In this document: piece by piece, positions 1-13,570 of the stretch
Position numbering within the stretch: the first letter of the stretch is position 1
How the letters are laid out: each line of letters begins with the position of its first letter
Source of the DNA: Xenorhabdus mauleonii
Lineage (GTDB): Bacteria; Pseudomonadota; Gammaproteobacteria; Enterobacterales; Enterobacteriaceae
Assembly: GCF_900113945.1 (NCBI RefSeq)
Contig: NZ_FORG01000004.1
Span: 1-64,000 of the forward strand
Length of the DNA: 64,000 nt
Reading direction: 5' to 3'
The notes under the pieces: model-generated
Seen by the model: only the letters and a program-made list of their open reading frames with translations
The model's database searches: none
What the model was told of the DNA's origin: nothing
Program-made: the position numbers and the translations under genes

Positions 1-1782
1 TTTGACAAGGAGAAAGAGCGCCAGCGTCTGGCACAAGCTCAGGCCATTGCAGAAATTGGTAATCAGGCGATGGATATCTACAATACGCAGGAAGCAATTA
101 CCGCGACGAAGACCGCCACGGAAGCGATGAAAGACCCACAACAGCAACAGGCATTAAAGGAAAAAGCGCAAGCCCAACTGAAAAAAGAAAACAAGGAAAT
201 CAATGCCAAGACCGTTGCTGACCGTGCCTATGACATCGCATATGATAGGGCTCTCGAAAATCAGGGGGCAGCCATCGGTGGCGAGCGACGTCAAGCAGTG
301 ACGGCTGTCGTCACGGCGTTGCAGGGACTGGCTGGCGGGGATATCAAGGCAGCCATTGCCAGCGGTGCAGCCCCTTATTTGGCGAATGCCGTCAAAGGGC
401 TGACGTATGGTAATAAAACGGAATATAGTCAGCTCACGCCGGAAGAAAAAGCCACCAATCTGCTGGCGCACGCGATTTTAGGCGGTGTTATTGCGGAGAT
501 GAAAGGCGGGTCAGCAACAGGCGGCGCAGTAGGCGCAGTGGGAGGAGAACTGGCGGCTTCTGCCATTGCCGGAGCACTTTATTCGGGCAAATCCATAGAA
601 GAATTGTCACCGGATGAGAAGGAAAAAGTCAGTAACTTGTCTACACTGGCAGGTGGGATAGCGGCAGGACTGGCGACGAATTCCACGGCGGGAGGGGTAG
701 ATGGGGCACAGACCGCCAAAAACGCCGTCGAGAATAACTTTTTGACCGCGAAGCAAATCGATGGTTTTGCGGCGAAAGCAAAAGGTTGTGAAGCTCGGGG
801 AGATTGCCAGCAAATCAATCAGGAAATGCGAGATCTGAGCCTCAAACAGCAAGAGGAAATTATTGCGGTCTGTGCATCCAATCCGGCGGCCTGTAAAGAA
901 AAATACGGGGATATTCCAGCTAATGGCCTGCTCGTGCGTCAAGCCATTGATCGTGTACTGGGTGCTGATGTCCCTTCACAGATGAAGAATGACATGTCGT
1001 CCCTGCTGGCTCAGCAGATTGAAGCGGAAGGTGTAGTTTCCAGTACGGAATTTGCCCATCAGTTGATTAGCCGTTACGGTATCGACAAACAGCAGGCTGA
1101 AATCTTGGCGGGCGCTGCATTAGGGGCTGTTACTGGCGGCATGGGAAATAAAGGGTCTAAGCCTTCAACCGTTGCGACAGATAATAAAGGCAGCAACTGG
1201 AGTGCAGGCAAGGGACAATACAGTACGAAGGATCAAGGCACGGTAACAACTGTTGAGCATCCAAAAGGTAAGCACGATGGGAAATCGTTGCCTTATTTTG
1301 AAATTAAGTCACTGCCTGATATACATGGTAAAGGACATATAACAGCGGTTAAAGGTGATGCCAAAATACCAGTTGATAAAGTAGAACTGTATATGCGTGG
1401 TAAAGCGGCAGGTGATCTTGATGCACTTAAAAAAGAATATAATTCACTTAAAGATTTGAGGATTCAGAACCAAAGAGAATTTGCTAAGAACCCAGAGAAT
1501 AAAACAAATTTATCTATTTTGGAGAAGAAAATTCACAATGTTGAACGTTCCCAAGAAATGAATAGGGTGTTAAATGACGCGGGGCTTCCTGATACTAAAA
1601 CTAACAATAATATGATCATAGGCAAACTGTTAGATTCGGCAAAAAATGTTACACCTGAAAATAGGAAAACGTCAGTAGTTGTTTCAGGAAATAATGGGTC
1701 GGTTAGAGTTTATGCAACTTGGACAATTTTGCCTGATGGTTCGAAGAGATTAGCTACTGTTCAAACAGGTACTTTCAAATGA
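1..1782 (+). CDS. CdiA-type contact-dependent toxin, C-terminal part (5' end outside window)
   Basis: The frame is open from base 1, so this is the 3' end of a long CdiA/haemagglutinin-like exoprotein. Its job would be to deliver a C-terminal toxin to neighbouring cells. The visible part has an Ala/Gly-rich pre-toxin stretch, a VENN motif at 727-738 that marks the start of the variable C-terminal module, and a conserved Cys-containing pretoxin segment up to about 1145. A unique toxin domain of about 200 residues follows. It ends in a segment rich in Arg, Tyr, Trp and Thr (RVYATW, PDGSKR, TVQTGTF), which vaguely recalls BECR-fold RNases; I cannot assign the activity. The stop overlaps the next gene by 4 bases, as is usual for toxin/immunity pairs. 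Bases 727-1145 are nearly identical to 8461-8879 of the orphan module. Confidence 0.85.
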   Translation, partial: FDKEKERQRLAQAQAIAEIGNQAMDIYNTQEAITATKTATEAMKDPQQQQALKEKAQAQLKKENKEINAKTVADRAYDIAYDRALENQGAAIGGERRQAVTAVVTALQGLAGGDIKAAIASGAAPYLANAVKGLTYGNKTEYSQLTPEEKATNLLAHAILGGVIAEMKGGSATGGAVGAVGGELAASAIAGALYSGKSIEELSPDEKEKVSNLSTLAGGIAAGLATNSTAGGVDGAQTAKNAVENNFLTAKQIDGFAAKAKGCEARGDCQQINQEMRDLSLKQQEEIIAVCASNPAACKEKYGDIPANGLLVRQAIDRVLGADVPSQMKNDMSSLLAQQIEAEGVVSSTEFAHQLISRYGIDKQQAEILAGAALGAVTGGMGNKGSKPSTVATDNKGSNWSAGKGQYSTKDQGTVTTVEHPKGKHDGKSLPYFEIKSLPDIHGKGHITAVKGDAKIPVDKVELYMRGKAAGDLDALKKEYNSLKDLRIQNQREFAKNPENKTNLSILEKKIHNVERSQEMNRVLNDAGLPDTKTNNNMIIGKLLDSAKNVTPENRKTSVVVSGNNGSVRVYATWTILPDGSKRLATVQTGTFK

Positions 1783-2267
1783 CAGAAATAATAGAAGTTC
1801 AAGAGTTGATTTCAGGGCTAGAAAGCTATCTTGAAAATGGTTATGTAAATGCAGATTCGTATGAGAATCCTGATGATGATGCAATAGATTATCTAGGAAA
1901 ACTGTTATTGAAAGATTCTGGATATTGTTTAGATTTTTGTAAAAAAATTCTAGAGTTGAGTTTTTCTGATGGTGATGCAGTTAAATCTACTGCCTTAAGT
2001 TTTTTAATTTTATCGGAATCTAATTGGTCAGATGCTTTTAATTATTTGCTCAATACAGCTGAGAAACTATCTATTTTGGAATTAAAAGAAGCATTCTTCT
2101 ACTTTTTTTGCGCAAAAAATGAGCTTGAACCATACCCTGTACCGGAAGGGCTTTTTGAGAAACTGATAAAAAGGTATCAGACATTAAAAAATGAATTTGA
2201 TGCAAATTTTTATCATCTACATGAAACATACGATGCCTTTATCAAGGCATATTCATTGGATTTTTAA
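1779..2267 (+). CDS. Putative CdiI immunity protein for the adjacent CdiA toxin
   Basis: This 162-residue acidic, probably cytoplasmic protein starts at an ATG overlapping the toxin stop (ATGA), so translation is likely coupled. It is mostly helical, with no signal peptide and no membrane segment. Its AT content is higher than that of the upstream pre-toxin region, which is typical of exchangeable toxin/immunity cassettes. I do not recognise the family. The immunity role is inferred from position, overlap and size. A strong hairpin follows 18 bases after the stop. Confidence 0.6.
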   Translation: MTEIIEVQELISGLESYLENGYVNADSYENPDDDAIDYLGKLLLKDSGYCLDFCKKILELSFSDGDAVKSTALSFLILSESNWSDAFNYLLNTAEKLSILELKEAFFYFFCAKNELEPYPVPEGLFEKLIKRYQTLKNEFDANFYHLHETYDAFIKAYSLDF

Positions 2268-2284
2268 CTAGCTGTTAGATATAA

Positions 2285-2312
2285 AAGATCCCGGCTAAAT
2301 AGCCGGGATCTT
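2285..2312. terminator. Bidirectional hairpin terminator between cdiI and symE
   Basis: Arms AAGATCCCGGCT and AGCCGGGATCTT (12 bp) enclose an AAAT loop, between two convergent genes. Related hairpins occupy the same position at 9889-9912 and 15853-15880, so the terminator travels with the repeated module. Confidence 0.8.
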
Positions 2313-2323
2313 CCTTTTAGCCG

Positions 2324-2566
2324 TCAATCATTCTCAACCAGCCGGATAATCAACAGCCCGTGCTCAATGCAGACCTGTACCGGTTGCCCGGTAGCAAATC
2401 CCGCCGCTTCCAGCCAGTTGCCCTTCAAGTGCAAACTGGGGTGCTGGCTGTAGTGGCGGGTCATGCCGGTGTGTCTGTCGGCGTGACGGGTATTGATATA
2501 GCCGACTTTATAGCGGCGTTGGGCTGTCGAACGGCCTGAATTTACATTACAATCGCGGTTAGCCAT
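2324..2566 (-). CDS. SymE-family protein (type I toxin/AbrB-fold-like)
   Basis: This 80-residue basic protein resembles SymE. It has an N-terminal polar segment (NRDCNVNSG), a central block containing RHYSQHPSLHLKGNW, and a C-terminal VCIEHGLLIIRL strand pair like the SpoVT/AbrB-type swapped hairpin. E. coli SymE is an SOS-induced RNA-targeting toxin controlled by the antisense RNA SymR. Here the gene lies just downstream of an XRE regulator on the same strand and converges on the immunity gene. A second intact copy is at 9926-10168 and a decayed one at 15886-16127. No SymR-like antisense RNA or LexA box could be identified by eye. Confidence 0.75.
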   Translation of the reverse strand: MANRDCNVNSGRSTAQRRYKVGYINTRHADRHTGMTRHYSQHPSLHLKGNWLEAAGFATGQPVQVCIEHGLLIIRLVEND

Positions 2567-2639
2567 GGTTAACTACCTCGTATAGTTGATTGTGGTTAGC
2601 GGCTATCATGAGGTGAGAACTCATGGTTGCCGCGTCATC

Positions 2640-3038
2640 TCAGCGCTTGGCGCTCTTCATAACAACTTTTTCCATCATTGACTTGGTGACAAAACTGTCA
2701 ATCACCATAATCAATGCCTTTTGCTCTTCATCCGGTAACGAATCTGCCTGCTGCCAAAGCTCATGCAAGGTGTGGTTACGTATCTTCACATCTTTGCTGG
2801 CTTCGCTACGGCCGACCAGTTCATCAAGGGAAACCTGTAAAACATCAGCCAGCTTAATCAGGCTTTCCAGTTGTGGGACGATGTGACCGCGTTCCCAGCG
2901 GTTATACACTCTGGGGAGCGTCTCAATCATCTCAGCAAGACGTGACTGAGTTAATCCTCTGGCTTCCCTCAGCATTTTAAGGCGTTCAGAAAATGCGGAC
3001 ATATCAATACCTGTTTGCATCAAATTAATGTCCGGCAT
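2640..3038 (-). CDS. XRE-family transcriptional regulator
   Basis: A Cro/C1-type helix-turn-helix occupies roughly residues 16-72 (ERLKMLREARGLTQ, then NRWERG). A helical C-terminal tail follows, with HELWQQADSLPDEEQKAL. The start at 3038 has an excellent Shine-Dalgarno (GGAGGGG) 5 bases upstream. The gene is divergent from the primase gene and runs into symE on the same strand. It probably regulates symE and, through the shared intergenic region, the primase-recombinase operon. C-terminal remnants of a different allele of such a regulator lie upstream of the other symE copies. Confidence 0.8.
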   Translation of the reverse strand: MPDINLMQTGIDMSAFSERLKMLREARGLTQSRLAEMIETLPRVYNRWERGHIVPQLESLIKLADVLQVSLDELVGRSEASKDVKIRNHTLHELWQQADSLPDEEQKALIMVIDSFVTKSMMEKVVMKSAKR

Positions 3039-3080
3039 TGTAACCCCTCCTTTTTAGCTGCCTGTTGTAAAATCTCTATG

Positions 3081-3102
3081 ATGCGATTATTATACATCGC
3101 AT
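3081..3102. promoter_or_regulatory. Candidate operator in the divergent XRE/primase promoter region
   Basis: A perfect 7-bp inverted repeat, ATGCGAT and ATCGCAT, has an 8-base spacer (TATTATAC) that itself looks like a -10 box. It lies between the XRE gene and the primase gene. Control by the XRE protein is inferred from this position. Confidence 0.45.
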
Positions 3103-3137
3103 ATGTGTCTATTGACAAGGTTCAAAAGGAAACACTT

Positions 3138-6100
3138 ATGGCTAGCAAACCTGAATCCGATTTAACCCAGCTCAAGCAGTTTGTCTCGTTGCTGGGTCTG
3201 GCACGTCAGCAAGGCCGCCCGCTGAAAAAGCGCGGGACGGATTATGTGCTGTGCTGCCCGTTCCATAAGGAGAAAACGGCGTCGATGGTGATCACCCCGG
3301 CCAAGAATCTGTATCACTGTTTTGGTTGTGGTGCAGCGGGATCGGTGCTGGACTGGATCATACAAACGGAAGGCGTGACGCTGAAAATGGGTATCAAACG
3401 GTTACGGGCGCTGGCCGGGTTGCCGGAGATGGAAAATGCGGTAAATCTCTCTTCTTTAGCCGCTCAACCGGGATCACAGGCGGCTTCTCCGTCACGAGCA
3501 AAACTCGCGGATCTGGATGATGACGGACAGGCGCTACTGCGTCAGGTGGTTGCGTTTTATCACCAGAACCTGCTGGACGCCCCGGAAGCGGCCGAATGGT
3601 TGGCTAAGCGCGGGTTGAACCATCCGGAACTGGTGAGCCACTTTAAGCTGGGGTATGCGGGTAATCACGGGATCGGCGGTTCCGCCGGGCTGCTGCCGTC
3701 GAAATCGAGCAAGGAAGGCCAGCAACTGCGGGATAAACTGGCCGGGTTGGGTGTGTTGCGTGCCTCTACGCGGCAGGATCACTTCCGGGGCTGCGTCGTT
3801 GTGCCGATTATCGGTTGGGCAGAGTCGGCGAATGTGGCGAGCCGGGGGCGGATACTGCAACTCTATGGCCGCCGTACCCAACCGGATTACAAGGTGCTGA
3901 AAGACAGCCCAAAACACCTGTATCTGCCGTCACCGTTGGCCGGGGTCTGGAATGAGGGAGCCATGAAAGCCTCGTCAGAAATTATCCTGTGCGAAGCATT
4001 AATCGATGCGATGACGTTCTGGTGTGCCGGGTTTCGGCATGTGATCGCCGCGTATGGCGTGAATGGCTTTGGCCGTGAGCACCTTGAAGCGCTGCAATAT
4101 CACGGCGTTAAACGAGTGCTGATTGCCTTTGACCGCGATGAGGCTGGGGAACGCGGGGCGGAGGCGGTGGCCGCAGATTTACTGGAAGTCGGCATTGAAG
4201 CGTGGCGGGTGCAGTTCCCGCCGGGCATGGATGCCAATGACTATGCGCTGAAAAGCGGCAACGCCGAACATGCATTGGGGCTGGCGTTGCAACAAGCGGT
4301 CTGGCTGGGGCAGGGAAGTGCGCCGGGCGCGGTGTTTAGCCATGAACGGGCGGTGTTACCGGATGTGATGGAAAAGTCACAATCTAGCAGCGAGGACAAA
4401 ACGTCTTCTTTAGCTGCCCAGCCGGAACCGCAGGTAGCACAAGTGCCCTGTGAGCGCACGGCAGCCGGTGAACTGCTGATGAAAAGTGGCCCCCGGGTCT
4501 GGCGGGTGCGGGGCATGAAAAAATCGCCGGTGCCCGATGTGATGAAAGTCAATGTGCAGGTGCGGGATGAAGCCTCGGGTCTGTTCCATGTGGATACGCT
4601 GGACATGTACCATGCCCGGCATCGCCAAAACTATATCAACACGGCTGCACAAGAACTGGAATGCGAACCCTCGGTGATTAAACGGGAAGCCGGGCGGGTG
4701 TTGCTGATGCTGGAGCAGCAACAGGATGTACAACAACAAGCGGAGGCGGAATCCCAAGGCACCACGGCCGTGACCGTGAGCGCCGATGACGAAGCGGACG
4801 CGCTGGCCTTGCTGACATCGCCGGACTTGGCGGCGCGCATCGTGTCAGATATGGCGGCCTGTGGCGTCGTCGGCGAGTCCACTAATTTGCTAACCGGGTA
4901 TCTGGCGGCGGTCTCCAGAAAGTTAGATAAACCGCTGGCCGTGCTGATACAAAGCAGCTCGGCGGCGGGGAAATCCTCGCTGATGGATGCGGTGCTGAAC
5001 CTGATGCCGGATGAAGAGCGTATCCAGTATTCGGCGATGACCGGACAAAGCCTGTATTACCTCGGTGAAACCAGCCTGCAACACAAGATACTGGCTATCG
5101 CGGAAGAAGAAGGGGTACGGCAGGCGGCCTATGCGCTCAAGCTGTTGCAATCGGACGGGGAGCTGAAAATCGCGTCAACGGGCAAGAATGAGCAGAGCGG
5201 CGAACTGGTGACACGGGAATACAAGGTACAAGGCCCGGTGATGCTGATGCTGACCACGACCGCCATCGATGTCGATGAAGAGTTGCTGAACCGCTGTCTG
5301 GTGCTGACCGTCAACGAATCGCGCGAACAGACGCAGGCCATCCATGCCATGCAACGACATCGCCAGACCTTAGCAGGCTTGTTGGCTGACAGCGAGAAAG
5401 GCTACTTAACGAAGTTGCACCAGAACGCCCAACGGTTGCTACGTCCGCTCAAGGTAGTCAATCCTTATGCGCATCAACTGACGTTCCTGTCAGACAAAAC
5501 GCGGATGCGGCGCGACCACATGAAATACCTGACGCTGATACAAGCTATCGCCTTGTTGCACCAGTACCAGCGGGAGGTCAAGACAGCGAACCATCGCGGG
5601 CAGGTCATTGAATATATCGAAGTCACCCAAGACGACATCGCGTTAGCCAACCAACTTGCTCATGAAGTGCTGGGGCGCACGCTGGATGAAATGCCGCCGC
5701 AGACGCGCAAGCTGCTGCTGTTGATACAGGACATGGTGAAAGAACAAGCCCAGCGCCAGCACTGTCAACCCAACGAAATCCATTTTACCCGGCGGGATAT
5801 CCGCGCCTTCACGCACTGGACGGATAATCAACTGAAAGTGCATTGTCTGCGGTTGGCTGACATGGAATACCTGTTGCCGCATGGCGGCAGCCGGGGGCAT
5901 CTGTTGCAGTACGAACTGCTCTGGGACGGCGCTGACAACGGTTCGGCTCACCTGTGTGGCCTGCTGGATGTGAACGAAGTCCCCCCAAAAATAGCAGGCA
6001 ATGATGGCAAGTTGGACTCAGGGACCCGCAAGTTGGCCTCAAGTTGCGCCCAAGTTGGGGCTGGGTTGGACTTGGAAAATACGGCTTCAAGCCTGATGCA

Positions 6101-6458
6101 GCAAGGGCTGGCGTCTTCGCAAGTTGGAGACAGACAAAAAGCTGTTATCAGAAGAAAAAATAAAACCGTGTCATTGCCTGTGCCCGAAGGGAGTTATCAA
6201 CCAAAATCCAATATGACAGGCAATGAAGGCAAGTTGGACTCAGAGGCAAGCAAGTTGGCCTCAAGTTGCGCCCAAGTTGGGGCTGGGTTGGACTTGGAAA
6301 ATACGAACTCAAGCCAGATACCACAAGGGTTAGCGGTGCCGCAAGTTGGAGGCCGGCAAGACGCAGTTATCAAACGTAAAAATAAAATAGTCTCGCCGCC
6401 CGCTGCCTTAGCGGCCGATGCCCAGACCGAAACGGAGATCAATGATGGCAAACCGTAA
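3138..6458 (+). CDS. CHC2 zinc-finger/TOPRIM primase fused to an AAA-like helicase domain
   Basis: From the ATG at 3138 (Shine-Dalgarno AAAGGAAA about 7 bases upstream) the protein has 1106 residues. Near residues 30-60 there is a DnaG-type zinc finger, with CCPFHKEK followed by YHCFGCGAAG. A TOPRIM domain near residues 275-365 shows ILCEALIDAMTF and AFDRDEAGERGA. The second half has a P-loop (SSSAAGKSSL, about residue 605) and a following acidic segment, as in primase-helicase fusions of phages and mobile elements. The C-terminus contains a 74-residue tandem duplication. The GC content is clearly above that of neighbouring genes, suggesting transfer. The gene overlaps the start of a tyrosine recombinase, so the two form an operon. 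This is an element replication protein, not the chromosomal DnaG. Confidence 0.85.
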   Translation: MASKPESDLTQLKQFVSLLGLARQQGRPLKKRGTDYVLCCPFHKEKTASMVITPAKNLYHCFGCGAAGSVLDWIIQTEGVTLKMGIKRLRALAGLPEMENAVNLSSLAAQPGSQAASPSRAKLADLDDDGQALLRQVVAFYHQNLLDAPEAAEWLAKRGLNHPELVSHFKLGYAGNHGIGGSAGLLPSKSSKEGQQLRDKLAGLGVLRASTRQDHFRGCVVVPIIGWAESANVASRGRILQLYGRRTQPDYKVLKDSPKHLYLPSPLAGVWNEGAMKASSEIILCEALIDAMTFWCAGFRHVIAAYGVNGFGREHLEALQYHGVKRVLIAFDRDEAGERGAEAVAADLLEVGIEAWRVQFPPGMDANDYALKSGNAEHALGLALQQAVWLGQGSAPGAVFSHERAVLPDVMEKSQSSSEDKTSSLAAQPEPQVAQVPCERTAAGELLMKSGPRVWRVRGMKKSPVPDVMKVNVQVRDEASGLFHVDTLDMYHARHRQNYINTAAQELECEPSVIKREAGRVLLMLEQQQDVQQQAEAESQGTTAVTVSADDEADALALLTSPDLAARIVSDMAACGVVGESTNLLTGYLAAVSRKLDKPLAVLIQSSSAAGKSSLMDAVLNLMPDEERIQYSAMTGQSLYYLGETSLQHKILAIAEEEGVRQAAYALKLLQSDGELKIASTGKNEQSGELVTREYKVQGPVMLMLTTTAIDVDEELLNRCLVLTVNESREQTQAIHAMQRHRQTLAGLLADSEKGYLTKLHQNAQRLLRPLKVVNPYAHQLTFLSDKTRMRRDHMKYLTLIQAIALLHQYQREVKTANHRGQVIEYIEVTQDDIALANQLAHEVLGRTLDEMPPQTRKLLLLIQDMVKEQAQRQHCQPNEIHFTRRDIRAFTHWTDNQLKVHCLRLADMEYLLPHGGSRGHLLQYELLWDGADNGSAHLCGLLDVNEVPPKIAGNDGKLDSGTRKLASSCAQVGAGLDLENTASSLMQQGLASSQVGDRQKAVIRRKNKTVSLPVPEGSYQPKSNMTGNEGKLDSEASKLASSCAQVGAGLDLENTNSSQIPQGLAVPQVGGRQDAVIKRKNKIVSPPAALAADAQTETEINDGKP
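5997..6440. repeat. Two 222-bp tandem repeats with iteron-like CAAGTTG motifs
   Basis: Units start at 5997 and 6219, both with GGCAATGA(T/A)GGCAAGTTGG. Within each, CAAGTTG occurs at the same five offsets: 6008, 6029, 6040, 6051 and 6120, then 6230, 6251, 6262, 6273 and 6342. Two consecutive intervals are 11 bp. The repeats lie in frame inside the 3' end of the primase gene and encode a 74-residue duplication. Confidence 0.85.
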
Positions 6459-7572
6459 ACCACGTAAAGGCAGCTTCCTGAGCATTGCTGAGGTGTACCG
6501 TAAGCCCGTCGGTCCGGCGCATGACCCGAAAAGCCTGTATGCCTTGCTGCTGCGCTTTGTGGCGTGGCGGCGGGAGCGGAACTGGTCAGAGACCACGCTG
6601 AAAGTGCAGACCCACCATACTTATCACTTTATCCTGTGGGCGACCGAGCGTGGCTTGTACTATGCCGCCGACATTACCCGACCGATACTGGAGCGTTACC
6701 AGCGCCACCTGTTCCTGTACCGCAAGAAGAACGGCGAGCCGTTGAGTACACGGACGCAGCGCACCCAGTTGCAGCCATTGCAGGTGTGGTTCAAATGGCT
6801 GACGAAACAGAACCTGATACTGGCGAACCCGGCGGCCGACCTCGAACTGCCCCGAGAAGAAAAGCGGCTGCCGCGCTATATCCTGAGCATCGACGAACTG
6901 GAAGCCATCCTGAACCAGCCGGACTTAGCCACATTGCAGGGCGTGCGTGACAGGACATTAATGGAGCTGCTCTGGTCAACGGGTATCCGGCGCGGCGAAG
7001 TGGTCAGGCTGGATGTCTACAGTGTGGATGCGTCGCGCAAAACCCTGACCATCCGGCAGGGCAAGGGCAACAAAGACCGGGTGCTGCCCATCGGTGAACG
7101 GGCGTTGGGCTGGCTGCTGCATTATCTGCGGGAAGTCCGGCCGCAACTGATTGTCAATCCCGACATCCAATCGCTGTTCGTGGCGATGGACGGGCGGGAC
7201 GGCTTGCAGGCCAACGGGATCAGCAATCTGGTGGGTGCCTATGTCAAAGCCACCGGAATCGAGAAAAAAGGCAGCTGCCACTTGTTCCGCCATGCGATGG
7301 CGACGCAGATGCTGGAAAATGGCGCTGACCTGCGCTGGATACAGGCGATGCTGGGCCATGCGAGTGTGGAATCGACGCAAATCTATACGCAGGTATCGAT
7401 ACGGGCATTACAGGCGGTTCACGCCAGTACCCACCCGGCCGAACGGCAAACTGACGAAACGCCAGATAATGACGACACCGGCTTGTTGGCCGATCTGTAT
7501 GCCGAAGAGCACCCCGACACAGAAACCCTACCGGACAACCCCACGCCGACCTCAACCCCAAAATCTCGCTGA
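6445..7572 (+). CDS. XerC/D-like tyrosine recombinase
   Basis: This 375-residue phage-integrase-family recombinase has an N-terminal SAM-like core-binding domain (about residues 20-125) and a C-terminal catalytic domain. All active-site residues are visible: Arg182 (GIRRGE), Lys207 (GKGNKDR), His279-x-x-Arg282 (HLFRHAMATQML), His305 (LGHAS) and the nucleophile Tyr314 (STQIYTQV). A short polar tail follows. Two adjacent ATGs at 6442 and 6445 are possible starts; 6445 has the better spacing to GGAG at 6434. The gene overlaps the 3' end of the primase gene and shares its GC-rich composition. It would integrate or excise the element, most plausibly at the dif-like sites just downstream. Confidence 0.9.
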   Translation: MANRKPRKGSFLSIAEVYRKPVGPAHDPKSLYALLLRFVAWRRERNWSETTLKVQTHHTYHFILWATERGLYYAADITRPILERYQRHLFLYRKKNGEPLSTRTQRTQLQPLQVWFKWLTKQNLILANPAADLELPREEKRLPRYILSIDELEAILNQPDLATLQGVRDRTLMELLWSTGIRRGEVVRLDVYSVDASRKTLTIRQGKGNKDRVLPIGERALGWLLHYLREVRPQLIVNPDIQSLFVAMDGRDGLQANGISNLVGAYVKATGIEKKGSCHLFRHAMATQMLENGADLRWIQAMLGHASVESTQIYTQVSIRALQAVHASTHPAERQTDETPDNDDTGLLADLYAEEHPDTETLPDNPTPTSTPKSR

Positions 7573-7726
7573 CAATCTGCAAGCCCCCGTTGAGTTGGGC
7601 GGGGTTCGGCGCGGGGGCAGACCGTGACCGGACTGCCCGTCAGCCTCGGTGCGGCGGGGGTAAATAGGCAATGGTCGGCCTGACCTGCGGTGTCCCTGTA
7701 AAATCTGGTGTGGCCGGCCAAAGCCT

Positions 7727-7757
7727 ATTCAACATAATGTCGGGGAATTATGCGAAA
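7727..7757 (-). other. dif-like Xer recombination site A (imperfect, inverted)
   Basis: Read on the minus strand, arms TTTCGCATAAT and ATTATGTTGAAT flank the 8-base centre TCCCCGAC. The right arm nearly matches the XerD arm of E. coli dif (TTATGTTAAAT), and CGCATAAT matches the XerC arm. Measured between CATAA and TTATG, the spacer is 10 bases rather than the canonical 6. Confidence 0.45.
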
Positions 7758-7803
7758 TTCGCCGTCCGGCTCGGCAATCCACCTAAACGCCGTGCCGCGG
7801 CTC

Positions 7804-7831
7804 ACATCGCATAATACACATTATGTCTTAG
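7804..7831 (+). other. dif-like Xer recombination site B (11-6-11 architecture)
   Basis: Left arm ACATCGCATAA, 6-base centre TACACA and right arm TTATGTCTTAG give the exact 11-6-11 layout of bacterial dif. The inner arm sequences CGCATAA and TTATGT are identical to E. coli dif. The site lies 232 bases downstream of the recombinase gene and in inverted orientation to site A. It is probably the target of the element's recombinase or of host XerCD. Confidence 0.55.
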
Positions 7832-8475
7832 GCCCCCGCTGTTCGGCCTCGCAGGGTGTGGCGCACAAGGCTGCGCCTTCTGCTGTCAGCCGCACAGCCG
7901 ATCCTCGGCCAACACCGTGCCGAACCTGAGCACCGTGCTCGCATCCAGTTAACACCGTCTCTTCTTTAGTTGCCGTGCGGTGTCCGGCCAAGATCCCTGA
8001 AGGCAGGTCGGCCTGCGGCCTCCGTTAATTTACCTCCCCCGCCCCGACCCCGCTGCACTGGCTGCGCGCGGCTCGCAGTCGCAGGCTCCTTGCTCGTTCC
8101 CGTGCTCGCCATCTCCGCCCCGTGCAGCCCCCTGAGGGGGCTTCCCTGAACCCGGTTGCGTGGTCATGCAAAACCGTGCTCAATCTGAAACCCCGGTGAT
8201 CCTGAGCGTCGCAGGGGCGCCGCTTGCAGGCTCTATGCCGCCCGCACCCGCAGAACGTGCGCCCGCCGTTCGCCCGTTGCCGAAAAGGGCACTACACTGA
8301 AGTGCGTTCATCAGGCAAAACTGGCGTTCAAGGGCAAAAAGTGCGTCTGGGCGTTTTGGGTTCGACGGTGAATGTGCATCAACAGTATCCCCTTGTAACT
8401 GGCTGAGTGCAAAGGAAAAAATGGCGTTCGTCAGTGAAGTTCGCATCGGAGTGAGTTGTTGTTGAGAATAACTTT

Positions 8476-9486
8476 TTGCACGCTGATCAAATTGATGATT
8501 TTGCAGCCAGAGCCAAAGGCTGTGAAGCACGGGGTGACTGCCAGCAGATCAATCAGGAAATGCGAGATCTGAGCCTCAAACAGCAAGAGGAAATGATTGC
8601 GGTCTGTGCATCCAATCCGGCGGCCTGTAAAGAAAAATACGGGGATATTCCAGCTAATGGCCTGCTCGTGCGTCAAGCCATTGATCGTGTACTGGGTGCT
8701 GATGTCCCTTCACAGATGAAGAATGACATGTCGTCCCTGCTGGCTCAGCAGATTGAAGCGGAAGGTATAGTTTCCAGTACGGAATTTGCCCATCAGTTGA
8801 TTAGCCGTTATGGTATCGACAAACAGCAGGCTGAAATCTTGGCGGGCGCTGCATTAGGGGCTGTTACTGGCGGCATGGGCAGCAGCAAAGGAAATAAACC
8901 ATCATCTTCAAACGCAGTAAAGGAGAATAAAGGTGCTAACTCATCCACCGGCCAGCAGGTTAATGCTGGAAATAGCGGGGTGAAAACACCACAAAATCAA
9001 ACAGGGAAAACAGCTGAACGTGTAATACCAGAAAATTTCACGGCCGAAGTATCAAAGCATAACACTCAGGTTGGTTTACTGAATAAGAAGAAAACAAGTA
9101 TATCTGGCGCCCATAAGCAAGATACATTTTTAGAATCCGTTGAAATATTAGGAGCGAAAGTAACGAATAAAATAACCGATAAGAAATATCCGGGATTAAT
9201 AGAATATAGTTATCAATTACCTTCGGTAGACAGGACAGGGAAGCCTATTGGGTACAAAAAAACTCAATCGAAGACAACATATGATCCTCGGCTCTTATCT
9301 GACGATAAAGTTCTTAATATGTCTACTCAAGCTGCTAAACAATCAAAGGATTATTTTATATCCAACCCAGATAAAAGGGAGTACTCAACTAAAGTCGATG
9401 GATATTGGTTTAGAGTAACGAAAGACGCTAAAAGTGGGGAAATTAGTAACGCATTCATCACAATGCCATCAAGGAATATTCCATGA
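8476..9486 (+). CDS. Orphan CdiA-CT module, EndoU-like toxin
   Basis: This is a displaced CdiA C-terminal module. The frame is open from 8455 after an in-frame stop at 8452 and begins VVVENN, so there is no native start. Only an internal TTG at 8476 is available, with no good ribosome site. Residues up to about 135 repeat the pretoxin region of the gene at 1-1782 almost exactly. The remaining toxin domain shows SGAHKQDTF, a YSYQLP segment, TTYDPRLLSD and GYWFRVTKD. This pattern resembles the bacterial EndoU/CdiA tRNase families, in which an early His is catalytic. It overlaps its immunity gene by 4 bases. It may be silent until recombined onto the VENN motif of a full-length cdiA. Confidence 0.65.
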   Translation: MHADQIDDFAARAKGCEARGDCQQINQEMRDLSLKQQEEMIAVCASNPAACKEKYGDIPANGLLVRQAIDRVLGADVPSQMKNDMSSLLAQQIEAEGIVSSTEFAHQLISRYGIDKQQAEILAGAALGAVTGGMGSSKGNKPSSSNAVKENKGANSSTGQQVNAGNSGVKTPQNQTGKTAERVIPENFTAEVSKHNTQVGLLNKKKTSISGAHKQDTFLESVEILGAKVTNKITDKKYPGLIEYSYQLPSVDRTGKPIGYKKTQSKTTYDPRLLSDDKVLNMSTQAAKQSKDYFISNPDKREYSTKVDGYWFRVTKDAKSGEISNAFITMPSRNIP

Positions 9487-9860
9487 GTGATAAAACGAAA
9501 TGGTTAGACGAGACAAAAGAGTATTTAACAAATAATGATGGTGAAGATTTATACTACCTCATATTTACTATGTTGGATGAAGAGAAAATGAGCTTCATAA
9601 AATTTCTCTTGGATGCTTCAAAGGGTATTGGGTGTGTAGTACATGAAGGGTTAGAATATGTATTAGATCAAGACTTGGATTATCCGGAAGACTTTGATTT
9701 AGTAACCTTTTATGTTGGAGAGTTTGAAAGTTCAGAAATTACGCCAAATCAATTTGTGATGCTGATGCGGTATATATCTGATGCTTATAATAATGCTTTT
9801 CCTGACAGTAAAGAAACGGTAGAAAGGCATATGAAAGCACTGACAGAGCGTTACGCTTAA
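9483..9860 (+). CDS. Immunity protein of the orphan EndoU-like module
   Basis: This 125-residue acidic protein starts at an ATG overlapping the toxin stop (ATGA), so the two are coupled. The C-terminal half (FYVGEFESSEITPNQF, then MRYISDAYNNAF) recurs nearly unchanged in the chimeric gene at 15631-15825; bases 9682-9860 match 15647-15825. There is no signal peptide or membrane segment, as expected for a cytoplasmic RNase inhibitor. The function is inferred from position and overlap. Confidence 0.65.
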   Translation: MSDKTKWLDETKEYLTNNDGEDLYYLIFTMLDEEKMSFIKFLLDASKGIGCVVHEGLEYVLDQDLDYPEDFDLVTFYVGEFESSEITPNQFVMLMRYISDAYNNAFPDSKETVERHMKALTERYA

Positions 9861-9925: not shown

Positions 9926-10168
9926 TCAGCCCTTCTCAACGAGCTGAATAATCAGTTGTCCTTGTTCAATACTCACTTTTACAGCTTGTCCGGTGGCAAA
10001 TCCCGCCGCTTCCAGCCAGTTGCCCTTGAGATGTAAACTGGGGTGCTGGCTGTAATGGCGGGTCATGCCGGTGTGTCTGTCGGCGTGACGGGTACTGATG
10101 TAGCCGACTTTATAACGGCGCTGGGCTTTCGAACTGCCTGAATTTACATTACAATCGCGGTTAGCCAT
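9926..10168 (-). CDS. SymE-family protein, second copy
   Basis: This 80-residue protein is close to the copy at 2324-2566. The N-terminal and central parts are nearly identical, including the HPSLHLKGNW block. The last 20 residues differ (VKVSIEQGQLIIQLVEKG against VQVCIEHGLLIIRLVEND). It has the same convergent layout with an immunity gene and a hairpin terminator. The XRE gene that should precede it is reduced to a C-terminal stub by the IS3-family insertion, so its regulation here is probably altered. Confidence 0.75.
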   Translation of the reverse strand: MANRDCNVNSGSSKAQRRYKVGYISTRHADRHTGMTRHYSQHPSLHLKGNWLEAAGFATGQAVKVSIEQGQLIIQLVEKG

Positions 10169-13258: not shown

Positions 13259-13570
13259 ATGACCCAAAATTTCAGTGTATTTATTGAGCCTAAATCATCT
13301 TTTACTATGACCCCACTGTACGATATTTTATCAACATATTCTCTGTTTCATCCCAAAGGAATTTCTCAACAAAAAGCTAAAATGGCGATGGCATTACAAG
13401 GGAAAAATCGCCACGGAGACGGGATAACAAACACCTGACGTTATCCAATATGTTGCCACTCAACTACCTGATAACTTCCCTTCACATATCAGTGGATTCA
13501 TATTTGAAAATATGATGAAAAAAGCCAGTAAGCTCTACAAAGTAGCACTGGAGTCGTTTGCTCAATACGA
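13259..13570 (+). pseudogene. hipA-like kinase toxin, C-terminal remnant
   Basis: The first frame reads FTMTPLYDILSTYSLF, then KGISQQKAKMAMALQGKNRH, and ends at TGA 13436. A second frame continues with VIQYVATQLPDNFPSHIS. This matches the pattern of HipA C-terminal domains (TPLYDVLS, KMAMA.GKN.H, LP..FP..IS). The kinase active-site half and any hipB partner are absent, so this is decayed debris. Confidence 0.6.

Follow-up and report, generated by a model that had tools for sequence, protein, structure and literature searches.

A probable small integrating plasmid that replaces the toxin tips of cdiA and rhs genes at VENN and DPIGL codons

The origin of new warheads in polymorphic toxins has been a standing question since at least 2009, when Jackson et al. 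(PMC2935791) put forward an episomal circle model for the displacement of rhs C-terminal sequences, in which a circle with a core fragment, a tip and the following genes displaces the old tip downstream. For contact-dependent growth inhibition (CDI), a 2011 study (PMC3150448) showed that VENN is usually encoded in orphan cdiA tips and can be the point where homology starts, and a 2016 study (PMC4927057) reported integrase and transposase genes near orphan arrays, together with a general suggestion of site-specific recombination. Polyimmunity loci beside XerC/D genes were noted in a 2012 report, a 2017 study of effector displacement in the type VI secretion system stated that there was no evidence for integrase involvement, and the rAID clusters of Bacteroidales (PMC12247911, available portion) combine a tyrosine recombinase with immunity-gene arrays and conserved intergenic motifs. 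The stretch of DNA analysed here (64,000 nucleotides of Xenorhabdus mauleonii; 'the window') is the start of contig C56 (NZ_FORG01000004.1) in a 94-contig assembly (GCF_900113945.1) and begins within a cdiA gene. At 727-8460 it holds a mobile unit consisting of a CdiA toxin tip, a putative immunity gene, a SymE-family gene, an RstR-like repressor gene, a primase gene, an XerC-like recombinase gene and non-coding DNA (ncDNA). Very probably, units of this kind are small integrating plasmids that replace the toxin tip of a cdiA or rhs gene and displace the old tip as an orphan.

The borders of the unit are given by a direct repeat that starts at 727 and again at 8461 (spacing 7,734), both copies opening with the VENN codons, the motif marking where CdiA toxin tips start. 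Because both copies begin at these codons, the unit runs from the tip through the ncDNA, with the older tip following it. The 5' end of the resident cdiA lies off the contig, and the left flank reads ...AKNA/VENN, matching a cdiA that is joined directly to its own tip. The features of the locus are:

1..726, plus strand: left flank, the 3' portion of the resident cdiA that precedes the toxin tip; open frame through VENN and a pre-toxin/VENN Pfam match
727..738, plus strand: left junction (attL), GTCGAGAATAAC, the VENN codons; start of the direct repeat
727..1782, plus strand: incoming CdiA toxin tip (CT), in frame with the resident cdiA (open frame 70-1782)
1779..2267, plus strand: putative immunity gene of the incoming tip, from its position and its overlap with the toxin open reading frame (ORF); no match in the Pfam scan
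2324..2566, minus strand: SymE-family gene (PF08845, 3e-21)
2640..3038, minus strand: RstR-like helix-turn-helix (HTH) repressor gene, divergent from the primase gene (NF041951, 85.6 bits, cut-off 80)
3138..6458, plus strand: primase gene, with CHC2 and Toprim (Pfam) and a conserved P-loop C-terminal part
6418..7572 (start perhaps 6445), plus strand: XerC-like tyrosine recombinase gene (Phage_integrase, NF002331/PRK01287, tree)
7573..8460, plus strand: GC-rich conserved ncDNA ending in the att arm of the element; the backbone is common to cdiA-type and rhs-type elements, and the last ~45 bases (att arm) differ
about 7727..7756, minus strand: internal dif-like site A
7804..7831, plus strand: internal dif-like site B, with a weak score against E. 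coli dif
8414..8460, plus strand: right-end motif GGAAAA...GTTCGTC...GCATCGGAGTGAGTTGTT, the att arm of the element, conserved in relatives
8461..8472, plus strand: right junction (attR), GTTGAG/AATAAC, the first 6 bp being the putative strand-exchange core (symmetry scans)
8461..9486, plus strand: displaced older CdiA toxin tip, an orphan (94% identity with 727-1026 over 300 nt)
9483..9860, plus strand: putative immunity gene of the displaced tip, from its position; no match in the Pfam scan

A preliminary description of this DNA had placed the element at 3138-8454, which misses its left part (727-3137, with tip, immunity gene, SymE and repressor genes). The gene pair, the GC-rich block and the ~0.9 kb of ncDNA that it listed are all present (Pfam/NCBIfam matches; GC 0.616 in the ncDNA, 0.389 and 0.406 in the two toxin-immunity modules and 0.427 in the window). 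It had also located the element in the variable end of a CDI locus, which is correct, but the toxin-immunity module belongs to the unit, so that this is not a simple landing in a variable region; such insertion itself creates the variability.

Compared with the 2009 model (PMC2935791), the likeness lies in the circle with tip and following genes and in the old tip displaced downstream; the difference from what the accessible part of that paper describes is that the circle of the present element has a primase and a recombinase, uses a defined core site and serves CDI too. On the preferred reading, this is the circle of the 2009 proposal equipped with an integrase. The start at VENN is shared with the orphan cdiA-CT/cdiI modules, for which the accessible sections of PMC3150448 and PMC4927057 present no specific element, core site, borders or circle, and the rAID clusters, in the available portion of PMC12247911, consist of orphan immunity genes and have neither a primase nor an in-frame fusion to a delivery protein. 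No description of the element was found among the matches listed from titles and abstract openings of the open literature, a scope outside which most subscription papers fall. In integrons, a Xer-related recombinase adds cassettes beside older ones, and here, too, new cargo is added next to older cargo; unlike the integron arrangement of a fixed integrase with mobile cassettes, however, the recombinase lies inside the moving unit (as read from the E. coli pairs below), it travels with the primase and the cargo, and the site is coding sequence. IMEX/CTX-type elements (IMEX, integrative mobile elements exploiting Xer) have a circle, an RstR-like repressor and dif-like sequences, all of which recur here, whereas the present element has its own recombinase and its junctions lie at VENN or DPIGL codons of toxin genes instead of at dif. 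Some phages, e14 in icd among them, also exchange the 3' end of a host gene in frame when they integrate, but they keep the host function, whereas the swap made by the present element changes the weapon.

The recombinase (6418-7572) matched Phage_integrase at 3.2e-35 and NF002331/PRK01287 at 603 bits (cut-off 371), whereas its score against the true-XerC equivalog TIGR02224 was 218.5 bits (cut-off 335.15). It fits a subfamily of its own, NF002331 (an NCBI model that calls the protein 'XerC'), and by the equivalog cut-off is not an orthologue of chromosomal XerC; its closest match in the PDB is XerD. The Xer-type catalytic set R-K-H-R-H-Y is complete and invariant in a 5-row alignment, in line with the preliminary description, which had reported all catalytic residues and, for the primase, CHC2, Toprim and P-loop parts. 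The first two of these were matched by Pfam, and the P-loop part (residues ~550-860), with the Walker A motif 'SSAAGKS', is very strongly conserved and has no Pfam match. In a PDB sequence search the primase matches were confined to the primase half, the P-loop half having no solved relative at E 0.01.

Relatives were collected by a one-genome-per-species scan with the 5-row recombinase alignment, from which the best 80 of 224 relatives (69 distinct loci) were used; together with 20 further stretches, the window genome and two E. coli loci, this gave 111 recombinase matches, of which 103 are adjoined by a primase. The closest recombinase relatives of the window genome are from Xenorhabdus, and many of the distant loci are short metagenome-bin contigs whose host phyla are uncertain. 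Forty-one matches had a recombinase at least 64% identical to that of the window; four of them end at a contig end, leaving 37 testable. An exact junction was present in 33 of the 37 (32 by sequence pattern, and L025 identified separately): the arm ends in TTGTT and is followed at once by [VITA][ED][NH]N codons. As L199 is the same contig as L033, the count without the double is 32 of 36. A search for the codons with the arm unconstrained produced 32 matches, 31 of which had TTGTT before them. The sequence after the junction codons varies widely by locus, that is, the toxin tips are different, and the ncDNA of the close relatives has no cdiA homology before the boundary. Many relatives also have a divergent HTH gene.

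Natural pairs of empty and occupied sites, the empty-site variants on which the preliminary description had made its proposal depend, exist in E. coli for an element of the same type. The rhsE site is occupied in KW21 (L002) and empty in Ec-U9-1 (L226) and A34 (L225); in these two, rhsE continues across the core into the very tip that KW21 carries as an orphan. Identity of the aligned flanks is 99.0-99.9%, and the insert measures 7,789 bp, with a shared core of 15 bp. The 200-bp empty junction was matched at at least 99% by five genomes, and the rhs frame is annotated as a single frame in Ec-U9-1 and in pieces in A34. At cdi, the site is empty in strain 1-62 (L233) and occupied in GXU-23-25-310 (L001): the tip that directly continues cdiA in the former is found 9,150 bp further downstream in the latter, where the element and two other tips precede it. 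An 11-bp core is common to attL and attR, with flank identities of 95.9% on the left and 99.4% on the right. In a pair of sister Enterobacter plasmids, identity is 99.5% as far as the VENN core, beyond which the tips differ, with the element backbone at 98-99%. A congener of the window's host (L227) has cdiA directly continuing into a tip similar to the displaced one (76-84% identity). Presence is patchy, at 15 of 394 genomes of the order.

A second class of elements resides at rhs genes; there, E. coli and relatives of the window's host have the junction GACCCGATAGGGCTG, made up of the DPIGL codons that precede the Rhs toxin. In the window genome, contig C77 has two identical 7,229-bp tandem units behind a full rhs gene, and its three tip fragments all start at the same base. 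Symmetry was scanned with inverted 7-bp arms over spacers of 2-11 and offsets, at sites chosen without a constraint on the left arm, and in both classes the best setting was a 6-bp spacer beginning exactly at the junction, with a pairing of 72.8% (31 VENN sites) and 83.9% (8 DPIGL sites) relative to averages over all settings of 26% and 28%, respectively. The same best setting had come from an initial scan whose site patterns favoured symmetric arms. Inverted arms around a 6-bp core correspond, on sequence grounds, to the layout of Xer sites in both classes; attB lacks this symmetry in its left arm. Among 86 distinct recombinases placed in a tree, the 21 VENN rows all fell into one 27-row clade (100/100), and five of eight DPIGL rows, with the C77 row, into a separate 8-row clade (100/100); members of both clades occur in the window genome. 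Three other DPIGL rows and Rhs rows with a YDP-type motif are found elsewhere and more scattered. The target thus follows the recombinase clade.

The complete circular plasmid NZ_CP072857.1 (11,289 bp) of Lonsdalea populi N-5-1 is, as deposited, a core-to-core circle, the free circular form of an integrative plasmid. It contains two tip modules, each directly after an att arm and a DPIGL core, a full and a cut primase gene, a recombinase gene, a RelE/DinJ pair and ncDNA, and has no rhs core upstream of the tips. PLSDB assigns it neither replicon nor relaxase type and types it as non-mobilizable. A search seeded with this circle revealed similar DNA in 34 of 392 family genomes, including several regularly spaced pairs. 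Contig ends overlap in a circle- or tandem-like manner in three loci (L063, 77 bp; L047, 23 bp; L209, 91 bp). In a plasmid collection 172 records had a match; five integrated copies were examined, and the exact junction was present in three (L236, L238 and L239) of the four in which the junction region is visible (L243 is truncated at the beginning of its record). A circle of 8,758 bp from Shigella flexneri SWHIN_104 (L240) encodes a primase 99.9% identical to that of KW21.

The borders, the cores, the empty and occupied sites, the tandem units, the core-to-core plasmid circle and the match between clade and target are all seen in the sequences. In the explanation that we consider very probable, the circular form would comprise a 5'-truncated tip, an immunity gene, often SymE, a repressor, the primase, the XerC-like recombinase and ncDNA with the att arm, and would replicate by its own primase under repressor control, the roles of primase and ncDNA being predicted ones. 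The recombinase would join the ncDNA arm to the core codons, VENN in cdiA and DPIGL in rhs, and integration would fuse the new tip in frame to the host delivery protein because the core consists of codons; the XerC-like protein itself presumably performs this recombination. The old tip and its immunity gene would shift downstream as an orphan, where the immunity gene may still protect. Repeated rounds would stack tips, and units could be lost, yielding orphan arrays; the element would also have to transfer between cells.

Several observations weigh against this explanation or limit it. Four of the 37 close relatives lack an exact junction (L011 keeps five upstream codons; L037, L038 and L084 have none), as does the plasmid locus L237, and of the 111 matches 38 downstream regions, mostly of distant recombinases, have no assigned junction and 21 met contig ends. 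The resident rhs of KW21 is annotated as frameshifted. The 6-bp spacer wins narrowly on its axis (72.8 vs 71.4% for VENN; next-best 78.6% for DPIGL), and because further spacer lengths score nearly as well on that axis, the axis is better supported than the length of the spacer. Three of the eight DPIGL-labelled rows lie outside the rhs clade, and the deposited circles could be assembly errors. The Shigella circle is not core-to-core: it holds ISEc1 and ~400 bp of rhs core, so that it did not arise from a simple core-to-core event and was rejected as a clean circle of that kind. Finally, QA-1986 630 (L235) is without one 7,791-bp unit present in L001, but that unit is flanked by arms identical over 127 bp; RecA-dependent homologous recombination could explain this step, and we have withdrawn it as proof of excision by the recombinase.

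The last two points also speak for the strongest competing explanation, in which the circles form and insert by RecA-dependent homologous recombination between tip fragments, as in the 2009 model, and the primase-recombinase pair is a passenger. Homologous recombination does act at some rhs loci as well. In favour of this explanation, some copies (L078 as well as L240) hold rhs sequence upstream of the core, tandem units could grow through unequal crossing over, and core fragments of variable length exist according to PMC2935791. As a general account it is nevertheless unlikely, given that the exact shared sequence at the E. coli pairs is 15 bp (rhs) and 11 bp (cdiA), that 33 of 37 relatives have the boundary at an identical nucleotide position without cdiA homology in front of it, that in two classes the symmetry axis falls on the boundary, and that the target follows the recombinase clade.

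Host XerC and XerD acting at the internal dif-like sites, in the manner of IMEX, would be another way to move the element, and the preliminary description had taken these sites as possible borders. Both sites exist and hold their position in many relatives, if not in all, and for this reason look like genuine parts of the element, but they are internal: the borders are the VENN codons at 727 and 8461, and dif-like borders were rejected with both sites inside the unit. Site B shares 14 of its 22 arm bases with E. coli dif, near the level of shuffled sequence (five single-base shuffles reach 12-14), and chance sites elsewhere in the window score up to 16. With an element that encodes its own recombinase and sits in toxin genes and not at dif, movement by the host enzymes is very improbable; the sites may resolve dimers of the circle. 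Of the earlier proposal, mobility itself has held up, with the E. coli empty sites and the Lonsdalea circle, as has the presence of the motifs in many close relatives. The ncDNA has a single-strand DNA fold z of -2.7, and a search of Rfam with 7573-8460 gave no match; a structured RNA in this region was considered and rejected.

That the locus is a fixed, host-owned device for changing toxins, as the restriction of every recognised target to cdi-type or rhs-type genes could suggest, has next to no probability in view of the patchy presence, the natural empty and occupied sites, the plasmid-borne copies and the free circle.

A phage origin was rejected as well. The primase had no match at 1e-20 in phage collections, and in 80 retained viral contigs its matches were weak (~23-31% over longer stretches, higher over short pieces only). 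PADLOC and PHROGs returned generic primase, integrase and repressor matches. No phage structural genes were recognised among the scanned proteins, and no conjugation or mobilisation genes among the window proteins scanned with Pfam/NCBIfam.

For both CDI and Rhs, the element supplies a circle, a recombinase, a site and natural before/after pairs; it would explain why orphan tips start at VENN or DPIGL and how the warhead of these bacterial weapons changes, and the question of warhead origin becomes a simple recombination assay. A broader proposal, to which we give about even chances, is that a widespread family of selfish replicons owns the tip polymorphism of CDI and Rhs, with VENN and DPIGL as att sites, the toxin-immunity pair as an addiction and exclusion module and orphan arrays as a record of insertions. 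If this is true, the unit of selection behind warhead diversity is the element and not the host.

Further observations concern cargo and neighbouring genes. In L034 and in L019, neighbouring elements agree exactly over 5,795 and 6,114 bp of backbone, respectively, and differ in the tips behind it; cargo therefore seems to change faster than backbone. In L204, two neighbouring elements are each followed by the linker 'RKVKTVGRWIIGNTNAGKGT' and then by different proteins, perhaps a further target class. Orphans at 13503 and 14420 of L233 start at VENN codons without the usual arm, and because of this other element types may use these codons too. SymE copies beside the tip modules have symR-/isrA-like antisense RNA matches at 2367-2636 and 9969-10097; the isrA match at 9969-10097 is the sole one to reach the gathering score, those at the 2324..2566 gene being below it.

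Among plasmids, 142 Salmonella records had an XerC-like match, and 15 of the 16 Salmonella records among the matches listed showed 69% query coverage, unannotated and mostly in two pieces, apparently a decayed copy. The circular Leptospira noguchii plasmid p6 (L242, 13,148 bp) has a distant primase-recombinase pair, with identities of 36-37% for the recombinase and ~45% for the P-loop part of the primase. Toxin-antitoxin pairs of DinJ/RelE or ParD/ParE type, resembling those of self-stabilising plasmids, were found immediately behind xerC in L001, L236, L238, L239, L241, L037, L038, L208 and L209 (the last four called from ORF reading).

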